A DNA stretch of 10,122 nucleotides from Candidatus Poribacteria bacterium (GTDB lineage Bacteria; Poribacteria; DTPJ01; WJIO01): positions 1 through 10,122 of the forward strand of contig WJIO01000131.1 in NCBI GenBank assembly GCA_014730235.1, read 5' to 3'. Below the pieces are notes generated by a model. That model searched no databases, was not told where the DNA came from, and saw nothing but the letters and a program-made list of their open reading frames with translations. Both the position numbers and the translations under genes were made by a program. Shown here piece after piece: positions 1,111 through 9,865 of this stretch (the stretch's first letter is position 1; each line of letters opens with the position of its first letter).

Positions 1111-2352
1111 ATGGATAAAATACGAGTTGGTGTTGTTGGTGTTGGGAGAGGTTCCAGCTTTGCAAGGAGAGTTGGGCCCTATCTTGATATGGAACTGGTA
1201 GCGCTGTGTGACAAGTGGAAAGAACGGCTTAACGCTCTTGGTAAAGATTTGAATGTAACCACCTATACAGATTATGATAAATTCCTTGAGCATGATATGG
1301 ACGCAGTTATTCTTGCCAATTATTTCCATGAACATGCACCGTTTGCCATAAAGGCACTGAATTCAGGCAGGCACGTTATGTCTGAGACCAGCGCATGTTT
1401 TACTATTGGTGAAGGTGTTGCACTGGTGGAAGCCGTGGAGAACAGCGGCAAGATATATATGTTTGCGGAAAATTATCCATTTATGCTTTTTAATCAGGAA
1501 ATGCGCAAGCTGTATCAGTCGGGTGTAGTAGGAGAATTCCAGTATGGTGAAGGTGAATATGTGCATCCCATGGTGGCTGAAAGTATGAACAGCATATCAC
1601 CGGGGATAAATCACTGGCGAAACTGGATACCTGTTACTTATTACAATACCCATTCTCTGGCTCCGGTTATGTGCATTACGGATACATGGCCCGTAAAGGT
1701 AAATGGATTTGTTATTCCATACGATCCTACAGATGAAAATCGCCAGAAAACTACAAGGGTCAATGACGTAGCATCGGCTATATTAGTGCGTATGAATAAC
1801 GGTGCTGTGGTTAAGCTTCTTCAGGTCTCACTTAGAGGACATGGTGTATGGGTTCGTATACATGGCAACAAGGGATTGATGGAGAATTTGCGTCATGGTG
1901 ATCGTCAGATGGTGCGATTGCGCAGAGAACCATTTGATATAGGTGAAAATGAAGAAGTGGAAAAAATATATAAACCAGAATTTCCAAAAGAACATGAGAA
2001 AGCCCTGGAATCCGGTCACGGCGGCGGCGACTATTTCGTCACCTATCAATTTGCTGAAGCTATAAGGAAGAATCAGCAACCATATCTTGACGTTTACCGG
2101 GGTGTGGTAATGTCCAGCGTTGGTATACTGGCCTATCGTTCTGCACTTAACGATTCCAATACTGTAGATATGCCGGACTTTAAGAATAAAGAAGAACGCA
2201 GCAAATATGCCGATGATCACTGGAATCCCGCACCAGGGAGACGTAAAGAGGACGATCCCTGGCCCAGTATAACAGGCGAAATTAAACCTACAAAAGAAGG
2301 CCTGGAGTATGCCCGGAAAGTGTGGGATAAAATTGGCTATCACGGAGAATAA
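1111..2352 (+). CDS. Gfo/Idh/MocA family oxidoreductase
   Basis: Predicted cytoplasmic, NAD(P)-dependent sugar or cyclitol dehydrogenase-like protein of 413 residues, normal for the family. The N-terminal Rossmann fold begins directly with a beta strand and a glycine-rich loop (VVGVGRG, residues 8-14). A second family landmark is the segment after HVM at residues 91-98, where the usual Glu-Lys-Pro motif reads E92-T93-S94, so the common Lys is absent. It is followed by AENYPF (119-124), a pattern I associate with Gfo/Idh proteins carrying SEVPA instead of EKP, some of them GH109-like. H181 in YNTHSLAP is a candidate catalytic histidine in the C-terminal alpha/beta domain. AGGAG at 1100-1104 supports the start. 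It is the first gene of the rightward cluster; the stop is three bases before the next start. The specific substrate is unknown. Confidence 0.9.
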   Translation: MDKIRVGVVGVGRGSSFARRVGPYLDMELVALCDKWKERLNALGKDLNVTTYTDYDKFLEHDMDAVILANYFHEHAPFAIKALNSGRHVMSETSACFTIGEGVALVEAVENSGKIYMFAENYPFMLFNQEMRKLYQSGVVGEFQYGEGEYVHPMVAESMNSISPGINHWRNWIPVTYYNTHSLAPVMCITDTWPVKVNGFVIPYDPTDENRQKTTRVNDVASAILVRMNNGAVVKLLQVSLRGHGVWVRIHGNKGLMENLRHGDRQMVRLRREPFDIGENEEVEKIYKPEFPKEHEKALESGHGGGDYFVTYQFAEAIRKNQQPYLDVYRGVVMSSVGILAYRSALNDSNTVDMPDFKNKEERSKYADDHWNPAPGRRKEDDPWPSITGEIKPTKEGLEYARKVWDKIGYHGE

Positions 2353-2355
2353 ACC

Positions 2356-3498
2356 ATGTATTCTTATGATGAATTAGGAGAAAGAGCAAAGCTGGCCCAT
2401 GATACGGTAATGCGTAAACCAACTATCGGTATTCCTACATGGTCTATATTGATAATGGAGCATGAACAGATTGATATGCTGGCCGGGGTTGAACCGGGAG
2501 AATATAAGAAAAATCCTGAGCCTGTATATATGAAATATCTACACAACACCGGCACTTGTTTTGTTGATCAGTATATACCATTTAACCCCCTGACAATCGG
2601 CAAAAAAGGTTATGAAGGCAAGGAAAAAGGCGTTACTACAGGGGCAGAGAAAATTGTTGTGAATGATATGCTTATTGACTCCCCGGAAACGGTGGTGGAA
2701 CATCTGGAAAAATTTGTCTTCCCTGGAATAAAAAATGCAATAGCCAACTTTAATGAAGATGCAAGGGTCAAGGCTATCCTGGATAATGAAAATGCACAAC
2801 AGGAGAAGCTTGGAAATAATATTCTCAAGACGGGTTACGCCTTTATTAGCTTTCCCGGTTTTCGATATGGAACTTATGGTTATGAATATTACCTTATGAC
2901 CCATGCCGTATACCCGGAAGTAATGGAGAAGGATTTTTCCCTTCAGGCTGATCTGGCATTATTGAATAACAAAGCCGCAGCCAGAGCTTATGAAGAGGGT
3001 GATCTGCCGCCTTTATATAGATTGGATCATGACATGGCTGATTCCCGGGGGATGCTGGTAAATCCGGAACTCCTGGAAAAAATTTGGTTTCCCCATTTCG
3101 CCAGATGTCTTGAACCTATGGCAAAGACTGACGTAAGAATGCTCTGGCACTGCGACGGAAACCTGATGGATATTGTTCCGGGACTTCTTGATTCCGGTGT
3201 TAAGGGGTTCCAGGGATTTCAATACGAATGTGGTATGGATTATGAGAAAATTTGCAGGATGAAAACAAGAGACGGCGAACCATTGTCCATAATCGCCGGT
3301 GTATCTGTTACAAGGACACTGCCTCTGGGAAAACCCAAAGACGTAAGGGATGAGATGAAATGGTTGGTGGAAAACGGTCCTGAAACTGGATTATTTCTAG
3401 GCTGTTCCAGTTCCGTTACTCCCGGTGTTCCCTGGGAGAATATTAAAATTTTGTTTGAAGGATTTGAATATTACAGAAAGAAAGGCAGAAAAGGATGA
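2356..3498 (+). CDS. Uroporphyrinogen decarboxylase (URO-D)-like protein 1
   Basis: A 380-residue protein of the URO-D/MtaA superfamily, a TIM-barrel fold that includes heme decarboxylases and zinc methyltransferases acting on methyl-corrinoids. Landmarks are RLDHDMADSRG (222-232), a strand ending in WHCDGN (264-269), the GFQGFQ turn (284-289), IIAGVSV (312-318) and FLGCSSSVTPGVPWENI (347-363). True MtaA enzymes bind zinc through His-x-Cys and a later Cys. Here H265 and C350 are in plausible places, but the second position of the pair reads Asp (H-C-D), so methyltransferase chemistry is uncertain. A true heme-pathway HemE is unlikely given the catabolic context and a second paralogue at 4936. 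GGAG at 2344-2347 lies inside the end of the preceding gene, eight bases before the ATG, suggesting translational coupling. Family secure, reaction unknown. Confidence 0.85.
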   Translation: MYSYDELGERAKLAHDTVMRKPTIGIPTWSILIMEHEQIDMLAGVEPGEYKKNPEPVYMKYLHNTGTCFVDQYIPFNPLTIGKKGYEGKEKGVTTGAEKIVVNDMLIDSPETVVEHLEKFVFPGIKNAIANFNEDARVKAILDNENAQQEKLGNNILKTGYAFISFPGFRYGTYGYEYYLMTHAVYPEVMEKDFSLQADLALLNNKAAARAYEEGDLPPLYRLDHDMADSRGMLVNPELLEKIWFPHFARCLEPMAKTDVRMLWHCDGNLMDIVPGLLDSGVKGFQGFQYECGMDYEKICRMKTRDGEPLSIIAGVSVTRTLPLGKPKDVRDEMKWLVENGPETGLFLGCSSSVTPGVPWENIKILFEGFEYYRKKGRKG

Positions 3499-3604
3499 AA
3501 TTGCCGGTTTTCATTTCATTAATTTTCCTTGTAATCGTCTGCCAAAAATTAGTGGCTCTTCCGATTTGAGTATGGAAATGTAAAAAACATCTTCTAATTG
3601 AGAA
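3495..3604 (+). pseudogene. Remnant of a secreted-protein gene (signal-peptide stub)
   Basis: An ATG at 3495 overlaps the preceding stop (ATGA) and has AAAGG about nine bases upstream. It encodes 24 residues, MKLPVFISLIFLVIVC followed by QKLVALPI, then TGA at 3567-3569. This is a textbook export signal with nothing attached. In the +1 frame the sequence continues with protein-like codons (RFEYGNVKNIF, 3562-3594) to TAA at 3595, as if one base had been gained or lost. The dispersed repeat begins at 3605, right where coding signs end. I read it as the decayed 5' end of a formerly coupled exported protein. It could also be a genuine tiny hydrophobic peptide or chance. Confidence 0.35.
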
Positions 3605-3760
3605 CTGATATTTCTAAAATTAACTAAAACCAGATGTTGTAGTGCTTAAAGGGATACTAGCAAATGAAAATGCTATCAAGCTGTCATTCCTGCCTTCGCA
3701 GGAATGACAAGCTGAGAGACTTTTCAAATTATTACCATGCTAAACCCGGAAGAACCAAAT
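3605..3760 (+). repeat. Dispersed repeat, copy 1 (with intact palindrome)
   Basis: Positions 3605-3688 match 9697-9780 without gaps at 80 of 84 bases. The match then resumes after an 11-base gap (3700 onward against 9781 onward) and, after a more divergent part, ends with the shared word CCCGGAAGAACCAAA near 3745-3759. No transposase or coding sense is visible, so it is a non-autonomous intergenic repeat. It lies between URO-D-like protein 1 and the sialidase-like gene and fills most of the 300-base gap from 3499 to 3798. Confidence 0.85.
3682..3709. repeat. Perfect palindrome inside repeat copy 1
   Basis: Arms TGTCATTCCTGC (3682-3693) and GCAGGAATGACA (3698-3709) pair perfectly over 12 bp around the four-base loop CTTC. 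The same arms recur at 6929-6956 with loop GAAA, which is the opposite-orientation form of nearly the same loop. It is a REP-like mobile palindrome of a type widespread in bacterial intergenic DNA. Confidence 0.9.
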
Positions 3761-3798
3761 TAGTTTTAAAGGAAATTGCAAATTCAGGAGAGAATCCA

Positions 3799-4923
3799 AT
3801 GAAGTTTAACGAGATCAAATACCAGAACCCGGCTACAAAGACTTATCTTGGGAGTCCAAGTATCATAAGGCTGGATAACGGCAGTCTGCTGGGAACCCAT
3901 GATTATTTTGGCCCTGGATGCCCTAAAAATTACGAAGGGGAAGAAGGACTTACCAGCGTTTATCGCTCTGATGACGACGGGAAAACCTGGGTTAATGTAA
4001 CTCACATAATGAACGCTTTCTGGGGGAACCTGTTTAAGCATAAGGGATCAGTCTATTTGCTTAGTTCATCCCAGCAGTATGGGTCAATAGTCACCCGACG
4101 GAGTGACGATAACGGCAATACATGGACGCATCCAGCCGATGGAAAGACGGGATTGCTATTCAAGGGAGGCCCTTTCAGAAATCCGCCCAATTATCACTGC
4201 GCACCAATGCCCATGCTGTATAAAGACGGCAGGATATATCGGGCTTTTGAGGACTGCACCCCTTGTAACTGGGGTATAGGCTTCCAATCTTCAGTTATAT
4301 CTGTGGATGAAGATGCAGACCTTTTAAATGCTGAAAACTGGACAATAAGCAATAAGCTGCCGTATGATCCGGGCTGGACACCAAAGGAATGGGGCAAAGT
4401 GACTCGTCCCGGATGGCTGGAAGGTAATGTGGTGGAAACGCCAGATGGTGAAATATGGAACATCCTGCGCTTTAACTCTACGCCGGTGGTGGATAAAGCC
4501 GCTATTGTAAAAGTATTCGACGAAGGTAAAAAAATATCCTTTGATCCCGAAACCGGATTTATTGATTTCCCCGGAGGTATGACGAAGTTTTCCATACGTC
4601 GCGATCCTGTGACAAATTTGTATTTAACCCTTAGCAATAATAACACCGATCCCAAATGGCCCAGTCAGCGAAACGTTCTGTCTCTCCATGTATCAAAGGA
4701 TTTAATCCACTGGAAGCATGTAAAGACATTATTGAAAGATGACCAGGACATATCCTACGAGGATTCCATGAAATACACAGGTTTTCAGTATGTGGACTGG
4801 CAGTTTGACGGTGATGATATAATATACATGGTTCGTATGGCCTATGGTGGAGCCCATAATTTCCACGATGCCAACAGGATGACTTTTCATAAGCTGGAAA
4901 ATTTCCGGGATTTACTGGAATAA
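3799..4923 (+). CDS. Sialidase-like (BNR/Asp-box) beta-propeller protein
   Basis: From ATG 3799 the product has 374 residues. Two Asp boxes are plain: SDDDGKTW (57-64) and SDDNGNTW (102-109), the turn signature of sialidase-superfamily propeller blades. IIRLDNGSLL (22-31) recalls the N-terminal Arg region of sialidases, but a full catalytic set (Arg triad, Tyr/Glu pair) cannot be confirmed, so exo-sialidase activity should not be assumed. I chose 3799 because AGGAG lies eight bases upstream (3786-3790) and the protein-like sequence begins there. The reading frame extends upstream to 3664, but those 45 codons are translated repeat DNA. No signal peptide is present from this start, unusual for a glycan hydrolase. 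URO-D-like protein 2 follows after 12 bases, indicating one operon. It may process a glycan or oligosaccharide; the substrate is unknown. Confidence 0.82.
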   Translation: MKFNEIKYQNPATKTYLGSPSIIRLDNGSLLGTHDYFGPGCPKNYEGEEGLTSVYRSDDDGKTWVNVTHIMNAFWGNLFKHKGSVYLLSSSQQYGSIVTRRSDDNGNTWTHPADGKTGLLFKGGPFRNPPNYHCAPMPMLYKDGRIYRAFEDCTPCNWGIGFQSSVISVDEDADLLNAENWTISNKLPYDPGWTPKEWGKVTRPGWLEGNVVETPDGEIWNILRFNSTPVVDKAAIVKVFDEGKKISFDPETGFIDFPGGMTKFSIRRDPVTNLYLTLSNNNTDPKWPSQRNVLSLHVSKDLIHWKHVKTLLKDDQDISYEDSMKYTGFQYVDWQFDGDDIIYMVRMAYGGAHNFHDANRMTFHKLENFRDLLE

Positions 4924-4935
4924 ACGGAGGTATAA

Positions 4936-6036
4936 ATGAACCAACAACGGGAATCTTTCAGGGCTATGATGGATTTTGGAAAACCGGAATTGCTATGCCA
5001 GTTTGAATGGGGTTACTGGGGTGAAACTGTGGAGCGATGGCGAAATGAAGGTCTGCCAGATGGCGTGGAACCCTGGGATGACTGCGATATAGTCCATTAC
5101 TTCAGACCGCCTATCCATAACGCTGTTTACCCCTACTTTGAACGGGAAATACTGGAGGAGGATGATGAGAGTGTCCTGGTTAGAACTGAATCCGGTATTA
5201 TTTGTCGAGAGAGTAAAATCGGTATGAGAGTTCCCCAGTTCATTAAACACCCGGTAAGTAATCGAGATGATTTTGAGACCATAAAGGAACGCCTTGATCC
5301 CAAAACCCCGGGACGCTATCCGGATAATTGGGATGAATGGGTTGCCAATGCCCCGGATTTTCCCCACATACTATGCCTTGGACGCAGGGAAAACGGTTTC
5401 TTCGGTTGGCTGAGGGAACTTATGGGACTTGAGGGGTTGCTTCTGGCTTATGTGGATCAGCCTGAACTGGTGCATGAAATATGCAGATACCATGTAAATT
5501 ACCTGAAAGATTTATACGAGAAGGCCCTGCAGGATATAGACTTTGATTTCATCTTTATGTGGGAGGATATGTCCTATAAGAATGGGCCGTTAATTTCACC
5601 GGAATATTTCAGGACATTTATGCTGCCCTACTACAAGGAGATGGTGGATTTTTATAAGCAGATGGGCGGAAAATGGGTAACAGTAGACAGTGATGGCGAT
5701 ATATCCAAGCTAATTCCATTGTTCATTGAAGCAGGTATTGACGGGCTTTTGCCCTTTGAAGTTGCCGCTGATATGGATATTGTAAAAATTCGGCAGGAGT
5801 TTCCTGATCTAATTATCTTTGGAGGTATTGATAAGCGGGAAATAGCAAAAGGCCCGAAAGCCATTGATCAGGAACTGGAAAGCAAGCTGAACTTTATGTT
5901 TGATTGCGGTGGTTACCTGCCAAGTATGGATCATCATATACCCCCGGAAGTGTCTTACGATAATTTTAAGTATTATCTTAAAAGATGCCGGGATATATAT
6001 GATTCTATTAATAATCCAAAATTAAGAGGTGTATAA
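4936..6036 (+). CDS. Uroporphyrinogen decarboxylase (URO-D)-like protein 2
   Basis: A 366-residue second member of the URO-D/MtaA superfamily, clearly different from the copy at 2356. Landmarks are FMWEDMSYKNGPLISPEYF (207-225), a strand ending in VDSDGD (250-255) where methyltransferase members have a His/Cys zinc pair, IDGLLPFE (268-275), FGGIDKREIAKG (295-306) and the C-terminal GGYLPSMDHHIPP (325-337). With D251 and D253 in place of the usual His and Cys, zinc-dependent methyl transfer of the MtaA type looks unlikely or modified. GGAGG at 4926-4930 lies five bases before the ATG. It sits 12 bases after the propeller gene and one base before the LamG gene start, so it is central in the operon. 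It is probably a cytoplasmic catabolic enzyme; the reaction is not known to me. Confidence 0.87.
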   Translation: MNQQRESFRAMMDFGKPELLCQFEWGYWGETVERWRNEGLPDGVEPWDDCDIVHYFRPPIHNAVYPYFEREILEEDDESVLVRTESGIICRESKIGMRVPQFIKHPVSNRDDFETIKERLDPKTPGRYPDNWDEWVANAPDFPHILCLGRRENGFFGWLRELMGLEGLLLAYVDQPELVHEICRYHVNYLKDLYEKALQDIDFDFIFMWEDMSYKNGPLISPEYFRTFMLPYYKEMVDFYKQMGGKWVTVDSDGDISKLIPLFIEAGIDGLLPFEVAADMDIVKIRQEFPDLIIFGGIDKREIAKGPKAIDQELESKLNFMFDCGGYLPSMDHHIPPEVSYDNFKYYLKRCRDIYDSINNPKLRGV

Positions 6037-6037
6037 A

Positions 6038-6784
6038 ATGAGAAGTATTATGTTTGCGACAATTATTGCGTCAATTTTTGTAGTAGGTGCTTTTGCTCAG
6101 GATGAAATAACTCCTGTATTATACTTTTCCTTTGAAGAAGAGGATGATGAAATCATTGACGTATCCGGAAACGGAAATAACGGTACAATCTTTGGGGAAG
6201 GCAACTTCGTTGAGGGTAAATACGGCATGGGTATTGAATTAGGTGGCCCTGATACAATTGATGTGCTCCATTCGGATACCCTGGTATTTCTTGACGAATT
6301 AACCGTTGGTGTCTGGGTAAACCTGGAAGCAGTAGCTAACCAGAAAATAATCGGTAAGTCGCCTATTGGCAGCGGTTGGGTTCTGGGAGTCAATGGCGGT
6401 ATTTACCCGGAAGTTTGGGATAAAAACGGCACAAACCATACCATAACTCAGGGTTCTGTTACTGCTGGTGAATGGACTCATCTTGCCATGACATATAATA
6501 CTGATACTGAACAGATGTTGTTATATATCAACGGTGAACAGGTGGCAGAATTAGCTAATGGGGGTAATCCTATTGGTGACACCAATAATCAGATGGTAAT
6601 CGGCGCTTCACCGTGGGGTAAAGACTGGACCAGCGCTGGTATTTATGACGAAATAAAGCTTTATAACGTTGCCTTCGATGCAGATCAGGTAGTCAATATG
6701 CTTATGGAAGAAGGCGTAGGTAGTGCTGCTGTATCAGCTAATGGTAAAATTTCTTCCCTCTGGGGAGAAATCAAGATTTATTGA
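6038..6784 (+). CDS. Secreted LamG/concanavalin-like domain protein
   Basis: A 248-residue exported protein: signal peptide 1-20 ending AFA before Gln21, then a single LamG-type jelly-roll that usually binds or decorates carbohydrate. Typical pieces are YFSFEE with DVSGNGNNGT (29-50), LTVGVWVNLE (88-97), EWTHLAMTYN (145-154), LYINGEQV (162-169) and IYDEIKLYN (202-210). The last residues (VSANGKISSLWGEIK, 232-246) form a separate short tail of the kind I recall from Poribacteria LamG proteins; its role is unknown. ATG 6038 is favoured because AAGAGGTG at 6024-6031 lies six bases upstream; a GTG at 6029 in the same frame would add three residues and has no better site. It begins one base after the previous stop and is the last gene before a hairpin. 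Confidence 0.85.
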   Translation: MRSIMFATIIASIFVVGAFAQDEITPVLYFSFEEEDDEIIDVSGNGNNGTIFGEGNFVEGKYGMGIELGGPDTIDVLHSDTLVFLDELTVGVWVNLEAVANQKIIGKSPIGSGWVLGVNGGIYPEVWDKNGTNHTITQGSVTAGEWTHLAMTYNTDTEQMLLYINGEQVAELANGGNPIGDTNNQMVIGASPWGKDWTSAGIYDEIKLYNVAFDADQVVNMLMEEGVGSAAVSANGKISSLWGEIKIY

Positions 6785-6919: not shown

Positions 6920-6928
6920 TGTAGAATT

Positions 6929-6956
6929 TGTCATTCCTGCGAAAGCAGGAATGACA
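6929..6956. repeat. Solitary REP-like palindrome
   Basis: TGTCATTCCTGC (6929-6940) and GCAGGAATGACA (6945-6956) form a perfect 12 bp stem with a GAAA loop. The arms are identical to those inside repeat copy 1 at 3682-3709, but the flanks here share nothing with that repeat, so the palindrome moves or is copied on its own. Confidence 0.9.
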
Positions 6957-7039
6957 GAGCAATGTCTACTTAGCGATTAAACCATTTAGTAAAGGGGAAT
7001 TTAAGGATATTTATTGGAAATCACTCAGGAGCAATGTCT

Positions 7040-7993
7040 ATGAAAGAATTATTTACAATGTGGAAAAATACCAGGATGATAGTTCTTACGGCGGTAACAG
7101 CGTCTATATACGCGGCGGTGCTTATACCCTTTAAGGTTGCTATTCCACTGGTTCCGGGTTTTACAGAAGTCAGGCCGGCAAATGTAGTTCCGATTGTATG
7201 TTCACTCATGTTTGGACCTGCTGCTGCCTGGGGGGCTGCTATAGGTAACACAATTGGCGATTTCTTTGGGACTTTCGGCCTGGGAACTATATTTGGTTTT
7301 ATAGGGAATTTTCTATATGGATATATACCCTACAGAATGTGGAAGGCCTTTGGAAGTGGCGAACCTGTTACCCCCAGGCGACGCTCCTTTTCTACAGCTT
7401 TAGTTGTAGCCCTTGTGGTACTTGCTGTTGTATTACTTTTACCTCCTGCTGTCAGGACTTTAAGAGATGGCTCTGCATATAAAATAGATTTATCATCAAA
7501 ACCTGTACTTTTTGGAATTTTTCTGGTAACTCCTGTATCATTCCTTGCGGCTTTATTTATGACTCTTCCCTACCTTCTGGTTACAATTTCAGCCAGCTTA
7601 GCCTGCGGTATTATGATCGGTTGGGGTGTTCATATTCTTGGACTTGTCCCATTTCCTGCCCTTGGTAATATAATCGTTTTAAATAATCTGCTGGTTTCTA
7701 TTGTCCTTGGCCCTATACTTCTTCCGGCCCTTTATCCTGTGGTGAAACGATTGGGTTTAATCTATTCTGAGGTTATGGATGAGCAGGATCAGGCAAAGGC
7801 GCGAAGATGGGCAAGTGCTTTAATGGTTATAGCTGTTATTTCTGCCCTGATAGTTGGTAACTGGGTTTCTATCGGTGGTTATGATATGGGTGTTATGGGC
7901 GATGGATTCGGGCCTGTAGTAGGTCAAGGCGGCGTTGGTCTGGCCCTGACCCCTTTTATACTACTGATATTAATCGCAGCGGCAGCCATGTAG
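7040..7993 (+). CDS. ECF transporter substrate-binding (S) component-like membrane protein
   Basis: A very hydrophobic protein, 317 residues from ATG 7040. The first part has the S-component pattern: a basic start, TM1 (12-33) with an ASIYA (AxxxA) motif that contacts EcfT in known complexes, then conserved-looking EVRPANVVPIV and GNTIGDFFGTFGLGT in a region of close-set helices (to ~100). Further hydrophobic segments lie near 117-138, 157-197, 209-235, 257-277 and 299-316. About ten segments and 317 residues exceed the usual six helices and ~200 residues, so there is an extra C-terminal half. AGGAG at 7027-7031 gives eight-base spacing to ATG 7040; ATG 7034 in the same frame would leave only two. 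The fused ATPase starts 15 bases after the stop, supporting a vitamin, cofactor-precursor or metal importer. The substrate cannot be told from sequence. Confidence 0.72.
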   Translation: MKELFTMWKNTRMIVLTAVTASIYAAVLIPFKVAIPLVPGFTEVRPANVVPIVCSLMFGPAAAWGAAIGNTIGDFFGTFGLGTIFGFIGNFLYGYIPYRMWKAFGSGEPVTPRRRSFSTALVVALVVLAVVLLLPPAVRTLRDGSAYKIDLSSKPVLFGIFLVTPVSFLAALFMTLPYLLVTISASLACGIMIGWGVHILGLVPFPALGNIIVLNNLLVSIVLGPILLPALYPVVKRLGLIYSEVMDEQDQAKARRWASALMVIAVISALIVGNWVSIGGYDMGVMGDGFGPVVGQGGVGLALTPFILLILIAAAAM

Positions 7994-8008
7994 TGATGTT
8001 TATTTATA

Positions 8009-9679
8009 ATGAATTATATAGAAATACAAAATCTAAGCTTCACATATAGTAATGACGACAAGAAAGCCCTTGATGATGTTAATTTCAAACTTAACAAGGG
8101 TGAGATGGTGGTTATAATGGGTAAGTCAGGAGCCGGAAAATCAACTTTTTGCCGTTGTCTTAACGGCGTTATACCCAAGTTCCAGAAAGGGGATTTTTCC
8201 GGTAAAATTACAGTATTGGGCGAACCTACAAAGGACAAGCGTATTTATGAAATAGCCCGAAACGTGGGTCTGGTATTTCAGGATTTTGAACCTCAGTTAT
8301 TCTCAACCAGTGTTGAGCTTGAGGTGGCCTTTGGCCCTGAGAATTTATCTCTACCAAGGGAAGAAATAAGTAAACGTATTAAATATGCTCTCCACACAAC
8401 AGGCCTTGAGGGTTTTGAAAATCGTCAGCCCTATAACCTTTCTGGTGGTGAAAAACAGCGTTTAGCCATTGCCTCTATTTTATCTATCAGGCCAAAAATC
8501 CTTGTGCTGGATGAACCCACCACTGATTTAGATCCTCAGGGAAGATATGACATAATCACATCCCTGAAAAAACTCAGGACTGAATCGGTAAGCTTGATCC
8601 TTGTGGAGCAGGATGCTGAGGATGTAATTGCTGCTGATCGTATAGTGATAATGGACGCCGGCGAGATCGTAACATCAGGAGAACCCGTCTATATATTGAC
8701 TGATATAAAATTGCTGGAAAAACATGGCATCCGGCCACCTCAGATAGCCAGGATATTTGAAAATGAAGATCATATACCACTTACGGCTGAAGAGGCTTTC
8801 GATAAAATCTCCGTTTCTATAGATGAAGAGAAATACAAAGGACTTGAGAAAAATGATGAAAAACGTAAAAATGATTACGGATCACTTGTAATCCAGATAA
8901 ATGATCTAAGGCATAGCTATCCACAGGTTGGCGATGTGCTTAAAGGCGTTGATCTGGAGATCAGGGAAGGGGAGTTTGTAGCCATAATAGGTCAGAATGG
9001 TTCCGGTAAGACCACACTGGCAAAGCATTTTAACGGTCTTTTAAGGCCGTCAGCAGGAATGATTAAAATTTATGGAAAAGACGCGTCAAAAATGAAAGTG
9101 TCTGATCTGGGCAGAATCACCGGGTATGTATTTCAAAATCCCGACCATCAGATTTTTGCCAGCACAGTGAAGGAAGAACTCGCCTTCGGGCCCGAAAACT
9201 ATGGTCTTTCCAGGGATGAAATTGATTTAAATATCAAGGAAGCTCTGGAAGCTGTTCATCTGGAAGGTTATGAAGATGTTGATCCTTTTTCCCTTACCAA
9301 AGGTGAACGTCAACGGGTAGCTGTTGCATCAATATTATCCTGTAAGCCTGAGATACTTGTATTGGATGAACCAACAACAGGTCTGGATTATCTACAGCAA
9401 AAAAGCATGATGGAGCTACTCAGCAATCTGAACGAAGCCGGACATACTATTGTAATTATCACTCATGCCCTCTGGGTAGTAGGTGAATATGCCCATAGAG
9501 CTGCTGTAATGCACGATGGTTCAATCATAATGGACTCAACAGTAAGAAAAGCTTTTTCACAACAGCAAAAGCTGGAATCAGTGGGGCTGAAACTCCCGGA
9601 AATAGTCAGAATGGGTAATATGATGGGGAAAACTATTCTTTCTGTTGAAGAATATAAATATATAACTGACAATAAGTAA
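8009..9679 (+). CDS. ECF transporter double ATPase (fused EcfA-EcfA')
   Basis: A 556-residue fusion of two ABC nucleotide-binding domains, the energising subunit of an ECF-type importer at the inner face of the membrane. Domain 1: Walker A GKSGAGKST (38-46), Q-loop Q91, signature LSGGE (144-148), Walker B ILVLDE (164-169). Domain 2: Walker A GQNGSGKTT (328-336), Q-loop Q376, signature LTKGE (429-433), Walker B ILVLDE (449-454), switch H486. The linker at about 255-292 is charged. In domain 1 the switch His is Gln (VEQD, Q201), and domain 2 has a degenerate signature; both fall in the same composite ATP site. It follows the S component by 15 bases with no clear Shine-Dalgarno, so translation may depend on coupling. 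No EcfT gene follows; the next gene is ftsY. Confidence 0.92.
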   Translation: MNYIEIQNLSFTYSNDDKKALDDVNFKLNKGEMVVIMGKSGAGKSTFCRCLNGVIPKFQKGDFSGKITVLGEPTKDKRIYEIARNVGLVFQDFEPQLFSTSVELEVAFGPENLSLPREEISKRIKYALHTTGLEGFENRQPYNLSGGEKQRLAIASILSIRPKILVLDEPTTDLDPQGRYDIITSLKKLRTESVSLILVEQDAEDVIAADRIVIMDAGEIVTSGEPVYILTDIKLLEKHGIRPPQIARIFENEDHIPLTAEEAFDKISVSIDEEKYKGLEKNDEKRKNDYGSLVIQINDLRHSYPQVGDVLKGVDLEIREGEFVAIIGQNGSGKTTLAKHFNGLLRPSAGMIKIYGKDASKMKVSDLGRITGYVFQNPDHQIFASTVKEELAFGPENYGLSRDEIDLNIKEALEAVHLEGYEDVDPFSLTKGERQRVAVASILSCKPEILVLDEPTTGLDYLQQKSMMELLSNLNEAGHTIVIITHALWVVGEYAHRAAVMHDGSIIMDSTVRKAFSQQQKLESVGLKLPEIVRMGNMMGKTILSVEEYKYITDNK

Positions 9680-9696
9680 GTCTCAATAATGAATTT

Positions 9697-9839
9697 CTGA
9701 TATTTCTAAAATTAACTAAAACCAGATGTTGCAGTGCTTAAAGAGACACTAGCAAATGAAAATGCTATCAGGCTGTCATTAGGAATGACAAACAGAGGAT
9801 ATTTTTTTCATTTCTACACTAACCCCGGAAGAACCAAAA
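9697..9839 (+). repeat. Dispersed repeat, copy 2 (palindrome shortened)
   Basis: This is the second copy of the repeat at 3605-3760, in the same orientation and about 6.1 kb away. Four substitutions occur in the first 84 bases. Eleven bases corresponding to 3689-3699 are missing, reducing the 12 bp stem to TGTCATT-AGG-AATGACA (9774-9790). It lies between the double ATPase and ftsY and fills most of that 186-base gap. Confidence 0.85.
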
Positions 9840-9865
9840 TATTTAAGTAGAAAGGTTAATAAATA

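Follow-up and report, generated by a model that had tools for sequence, protein, structure and literature searches.

What would two different proteins of the uroporphyrinogen decarboxylase (UroD) superfamily do among carbohydrate genes, with no corrinoid gene beside them? The question is raised by a 10,122-nucleotide (nt) stretch of DNA, the window of this study, which is the entire contig C50 of a metagenome-assembled genome (MAG) of the Poribacteria phylum (5.53 Mb in 451 contigs). Its open reading frames (ORFs) include five genes on one strand, from position 1111 to 6784, for a Gfo/Idh/MocA protein, URO-D1, an Asp-box protein, URO-D2 and a LamG protein. The best reading of this cluster, which we rate a little short of an even chance, is corrinoid-dependent demethylation of a glycan-derived substrate via a shared corrinoid protein. 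An initial annotation of this DNA had offered demethylation or decarboxylation of a modified sugar; a demethylation pathway is the most plausible reading, and decarboxylation is kept as one option within a corrinoid-free alternative weighed below.

Two UroD-superfamily proteins with distinct active sites

Both proteins pass the 23.9-bit cut-off of PF01208 (Table 1). Their AlphaFold models (predicted local distance difference test, pLDDT, 94 for URO-D1 and 93 for URO-D2) align to a UroD structure with VIA Z 21.4 (root-mean-square deviation, rmsd, 4.0 over 314 residues) and VIA Z 25.7 (rmsd 3.5 over 310 residues), respectively. The models also align to structures of methylcobalamin:coenzyme M methyltransferase, URO-D1 to 4AY8 (VIA Z 18.9, rmsd 4.6 over 304 residues) and URO-D2 to 4AY7 (VIA Z 21.4, rmsd 4.1 over 306 residues), and 4AY7 is the top Foldseek match for URO-D1. 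CdmB (9rui) is not among the listed fold matches, an absence that is no evidence of a differing fold, and no meaningful relative emerged from PDB sequence searches with either URO-D protein alone. The assignment to the MtaA/CmuA branch in the initial annotation was too specific: URO-D1 and URO-D2 score 25.6 and 23.3 bits with TIGR01463, far under its cut-off of 235.4, and at the positions of the His-x-Cys...Cys zinc ligands of that family they carry H-x-D and D-x-D...H, respectively. The hemE equivalog model TIGR01464 matched neither protein even at an E value of 0.1. Judged by profile and predicted fold, they are two different paralogues of the UroD superfamily, as first proposed, and are best filed under neither MtaA/CmuA nor HemE.

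In URO-D1 the motif H265-C-D267-G-N places an invariant H265-x-D267 at MtaA zinc-ligand positions, and the third (last) Cys ligand of MtaA is not conserved. In URO-D2 the MtaA ligand positions are occupied by D251-x-D253 and D332-H333; these four residues, together with E210, D211 and K300, are invariant in the URO-D2 type (27 sequences). The 18 clear D-x-D...D-H sequences and two related ones form one clade that includes URO-D2 (support 0.88), and the URO-D1 orthologues form a separate clade (support 1.0).

The URO-D2 site type in corrinoid operons

Within short flanks no D-x-D gene is linked to a corrinoid gene; in larger regions three loci are, and their D-x-D enzymes share one clade with URO-D2. 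Locus L236 (genome G040) carries on one strand genes for a corrinoid protein, the reductive activase RACo, DUF1638, a UroD protein with HSCG, a second with HSDG and an enzyme of the D-x-D...D-H type. L235 (G055) has a corrinoid gene, RACo, two UroD genes and a D-x-D gene in the same order, and in L234 (G057) a D-x-D gene adjoins a corrinoid gene. In operons of the L235/L236 type, several different UroD proteins share one corrinoid protein, an arrangement that the window cluster would also need. Of the two window proteins, URO-D2 is the more secure methyltransferase candidate, since corrinoid/RACo operons include enzymes with its type of active site. The RACo gene of G057 lies near a pterin-binding methyltransferase gene, probably as part of a Wood-Ljungdahl cluster. 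A same-order relative (G001, locus L201) combines a corrinoid gene, three URO-D genes and one for a distant UroD-like protein, RACo, a carbohydrate-type ABC importer and GH3.

We confirm that the window itself holds no corrinoid gene. A search of the genome for a corrinoid protein and its activase, proposed with the initial annotation, found two methyltransferase-type corrinoid proteins, among four B12-binding_2 proteins, and one RACo. The corrinoid gene on contig C202 (L104) is 25 nt from a UroD gene; the similar protein of C110 is encoded on the same contig as another UroD gene. The B12-binding_2 gene of C346 precedes what we read as a homocysteine S-methyltransferase-type gene, and the protein of C339 is longer and different. 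RACo (C296) has a ROK kinase gene on one side and a Gfo/Idh gene on the other, all on the same strand. A corrinoid protein and its reductive activase are therefore both available in the genome, neither adjoining the window genes. Of the 12 genomes with URO-D1 orthologues, 11 have a stand-alone corrinoid protein, often encoded away from any methyltransferase gene. This agrees with action in trans but, such proteins being common, is permissive and not specific.

Carbohydrate context of the UroD genes

In an unplaced bacterium (L091), a D-x-D...D-H protein (34% identical to URO-D2), a URO-D1 protein (58%) and a Gfo/Idh protein (69%) are encoded in a row. The URO-D1 locus of L092 includes a Gfo protein 47% identical to that of the window, and G057:C114 has overlapping URO-D1-like and D-x-D genes. 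Genes of the D-x-D type also have GH95, sulfatase, Gfo/Idh, GH43/GH130-like and LamG genes in their vicinity; of 49 D-x-D neighbours, counting that of the window, 4 are Gfo/Idh genes, compared with 0 of 82 genes from arbitrarily chosen contigs, a small sample. The carbohydrate context first claimed for these paralogues is supported via specific clades. The neighbourhood check on homologues yielded clade-specific sugar and corrinoid loci, whereas an enrichment of Gfo/Idh genes near UroD genes across the genome was not significant, and neither was one of AP-endonuclease-2-type isomerases near UroD genes.

In the same-order relative (L086), cobU, cobT, a GNAT gene, URO-D1 and then another Gfo/Idh gene follow one another with gaps of 0-11 nt, and the locus lacks Asp-box, URO-D2 and LamG genes. 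In the genome of the window, cobT does not adjoin URO-D1; it is on C271, where an unrelated Gfo/Idh gene comes after it. GNAT genes are found next to URO-D1-type genes, or fused to them, in L086:787-4936, L092, L095 and L169:1733-3421, with a further profile match in L097; this recurrence suggests that the pathway includes an acylation. A third, distant UroD-like protein is encoded beside URO-D1 in L095 and also within the L092 locus. Such proteins form a family of about 360 amino acids (L092:254-1342, L095:5778-6872, L201:1981-3048; H-x-D-G motif, hhalign probability 91%), which has no Pfam match and is found with UroD or corrinoid genes.

The Gfo/Idh protein of the window is closest to the NAD-dependent glycosidases of family GH109. 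Of all PDB sequences its best match is 2IXA (67.4 bits in two matched stretches, with similarity over both domains), followed by 6T2B (57.6 bits). In common with these enzymes it has lost the usual E-K-P lysine (replaced in S-E-T-S-A) and has a GHGG-DYF motif (GHGGGDYF); unlike them it remains under the cut-off of the GH109 C-terminal model PF21252 (12.5 against 27 bits). It is probably GH109-like, acting via NAD-dependent oxidation at the sugar ring. The Asp-box protein scores slightly under the BNR_2 cut-off of 31.4 bits and has no confident PDB relative, and the LamG protein matches Laminin_G_3. The LamG protein is also one of 9 among 702 sampled proteins that end in [ST]-x-W-G-x-[IVL]-K (6740-6784 in the window; further sites in L099, L108, L114, L120, L126 and L154), a motif with just 2 internal occurrences in 243,055 amino acids and a possible C-terminal sorting signal.

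Layout of the cluster

Pfam and ORF support confirm the five genes, mostly as first described; every ORF is long, matched to a family and has homologues, so the cluster is not a chance artefact. Two gene starts needed attention. The Asp-box ORF spans 3664-4923, and its first possible start falls within a dispersed repeat; a Shine-Dalgarno sequence (AGGAGA) lies about 7-12 nt upstream of the ATG at 3799, which is for both reasons the likelier start. For the LamG gene, ATG 6038 was chosen over the alternative ORF start at 6029, as it gives a clean signal peptide.

Table 1. Features of the UroD gene cluster in the window.
Feature	Coordinates	Strand	Evidence and remarks
Gfo/Idh/MocA protein, GH109-like	1111..2352	+	PF01408 50.8 bits; best PDB matches GH109 2IXA, 6T2B
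URO-D1, UroD superfamily	2356..3498	+	PF01208 28.5 bits; orthologues 50-69% identical
Dispersed repeat, palindrome TGTCATTCCTGC...GCAGGAATGACA	3605..3765	.	between URO-D1 and Asp-box gene; second copy 9697-9844
Asp-box/BNR_2-like beta-propeller, 374 amino acids	3799..4923	+	BNR_2 30.7 bits; start from Shine-Dalgarno sequence and repeat
URO-D2, UroD superfamily, D251-x-D253...D332-H333 type	4936..6036	+	PF01208 43.9 bits; invariants in 27 sequences
Secreted LamG (Laminin_G_3) protein	6038..6784	+	82.4 bits; C-terminal S-x-W-G-E-I-K motif

The spacings first reported hold: 3 nt from Gfo/Idh to URO-D1 and 12 nt from the Asp-box gene to URO-D2 are exact, and 1 nt from URO-D2 to LamG follows from the start at 6038. 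Co-transcription had been drawn from these spacings, apart from the repeat-containing gap; in its strict form, for all five genes, it is not supported, since a 300-nt gap with the dispersed repeat divides the cluster into Gfo-URO-D1 and Asp-box-URO-D2-LamG. The repeat is about 160 nt long with a palindromic TGTCATTCCTGC core; besides the copies in Table 1 it has a site at 6928-6957, and 176 matches fall across 67 loci in 0.94 Mb of sampled genome. It is probably a MITE/REP-like element (miniature inverted-repeat transposable or repetitive extragenic palindromic). No riboswitches or other Rfam RNAs were found in the window or in nine orthologue loci.

Outside the cluster, positions 7034-9679 encode a QueT-family membrane protein and then a single gene fusing two energy-coupling factor (ECF) ATPase modules; no EcfT gene was identified on the contig. 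At 1-900 on the minus strand, a gene that diverges from the cluster and is cut off by the end of the contig encodes a protein with a signal-type N-terminus and no Pfam family.

Expansion of UroD paralogues

PF01208 gives 76 matches in the genome, and a profile search gives 81 UroD ORFs, only one of which keeps the His-Cys-Cys zinc site. Copies were scored up to 29 per genome across the phylum, a count of 29 meaning at least 29. Six genera, that of the window included, have at least 17 each; relatives in the well-sampled genera that we read as sponge-type, and others in the phylum, have one or two. The presence of RACo was uninformative as a marker of this expansion, since nearly every relative has one. 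Orthologues of URO-D1 are spread over MAGs with the labels Armatimonadota, Thermoflexales, PVC group, Planctomycetota, Omnitrophota, Desantisbacteria, Hydrogenedentes and others, and a 69% identical one is found in a same-order relative deposited as Candidatus Poribacteria, which places the window in that phylum. The top PF01208 match of the genome is a His-Cys-Cys protein on C282, and G057:C62 of a relative scores 454 bits. No clear HemE was seen among the PF01208 matches of the genome, for which an incomplete assembly and haem auxotrophy are alternative explanations.

Discussion

Methylated sugars are present in algal, plant and microbial polysaccharides, and our analysis suggests a model in which the cluster would encode part of a glycan-catabolic pathway. 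URO-D2, and probably URO-D1, would act as substrate-specific corrinoid methyltransferases, passing the methyl group of an O-methylated (or N-methylated) sugar or other glycan-derived product to a shared corrinoid protein encoded elsewhere and kept active by the single RACo of the genome. The metal would be bound by carboxylate and histidine ligands (D-x-D...H, H-x-D) rather than by His-Cys-Cys, an exchange that an oxygen substrate would lead one to expect. The GH109-like protein may cleave or oxidise the sugar, and the Asp-box propeller and secreted LamG protein may bind or process the glycan.

Several observations weigh against this model. The URO-D1 orthologue loci, like the window, contain no corrinoid gene; no gene points to a methylated-sugar substrate; nearly all relatives carry RACo, whether UroD is expanded in them or not; and about 81 UroD genes face two methyltransferase-type corrinoid proteins. 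The corrinoid-linked D-x-D enzymes make up a subclade of their own, at just 30-32% identity to URO-D2, and UroD genes are not enriched near Gfo/Idh genes genome-wide (10 of 79 within 2 kb, 6.0 expected), so that the sugar link is drawn from clade-specific loci. The invariant Lys and carboxylates would suit a lyase or isomerase equally well, which leads to the main rival, in our view somewhat unlikely: URO-D2, and perhaps URO-D1, would be a corrinoid-free, metal-dependent lyase, decarboxylase, isomerase or hydrolase of sugar catabolism on a reused UroD barrel, its D-x-D...D-H site and invariant Lys binding a metal plus a sugar or sugar acid. The seven invariant residues of the URO-D2 type, the surplus of UroD paralogues over corrinoid proteins, and the glycan-related rather than corrinoid neighbours of URO-D1, URO-D2 and some other D-x-D genes are all consistent with such an enzyme. 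Against it, identical active-site residues are found in the enzymes of corrinoid/RACo operons of other genera, and the characterised superfamily members that are not decarboxylases are mostly methyltransferases (PMC10418091, PMC13222342).

It is also conceivable, if improbable, that there is no single pathway and that the two halves of the cluster are unrelated units in a genome rich in Gfo/Idh, UroD and LamG genes. The gap with its mobile-type repeat, the near-chance distances between UroD and Gfo genes and the reduced URO-D1 locus of L086 agree with such a division; the triple of L091, with its 69% identical Gfo protein in another lineage, the Gfo gene in the URO-D1 locus of L092 and the adjacent URO-D1-like and D-x-D genes of G057:C114 argue for a connection. 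That these are ordinary uroporphyrinogen decarboxylases of haem synthesis is scarcely credible: the UroD fold and PF01208 match would allow it, but TIGR01464 does not match, the copies are divergent and number in the dozens, and their neighbours are unrelated to haem.

Corrinoid-dependent demethylation, our preferred reading, can be set beside characterised systems. S-methyltransferases of the superfamily use His-Cys-Cys, and O-methyltransferases swap Cys for carboxylates or non-ligands (PMC10418091); CdmB functions without zinc (PMC13222342). The coenzyme M methyltransferases MtaA, MtbA and MtsA and Mlp (PMC10418091) resemble the window proteins in their UroD-type barrel, with 4AY7 and 4AY8 among the best structural matches, and in their metal-site positions. 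The window proteins differ in their ligands and lie far under the family cut-offs, and their genes are in a sugar context with no adjacent corrinoid gene. The O-demethylases and haloalkane methyltransferases MtvB, OdmB, VdmB, MtoB and CdmB (PMC13222342), compared here by description, share with them the superfamily, zinc sites that contain carboxylates or are absent, and many paralogues per genome, and they work, as the window proteins would, with a separate corrinoid protein and activase; their substrates are methoxy-aromatics or haloalkanes, whereas the window neighbours are carbohydrate genes. A cytochrome P450 (PMC10033563) likewise strips the methyl group from an algal methoxy sugar, 6-O-methyl-galactose, by an oxygen-dependent and not a corrinoid route. 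Within the literature considered, this oxygen-dependent P450 was the only route that we found for removing methyl from methylated sugars, and nothing relevant emerged on UroD proteins of Poribacteria or on their use in polysaccharide breakdown.

We therefore raise, as a doubtful proposal, an undescribed anaerobic route in which a large family of UroD-fold enzymes with carboxylate/His metal sites (D-x-D...D-H and H-x-D) would demethylate O- or N-methylated sugars onto shared corrinoid proteins, together with NAD-dependent GH109-like glycosidases, some 80 paralogues in one genome covering many methylated glycans. If true, this would explain the large UroD families across several uncultivated phyla and give a function to the carbohydrate gene neighbourhoods of poorly annotated UroD-type proteins, with the D-x-D clade and the corrinoid-linked operons as directly testable enzyme sets. 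Glycan methyl groups would then feed one-carbon metabolism in anoxic settings.

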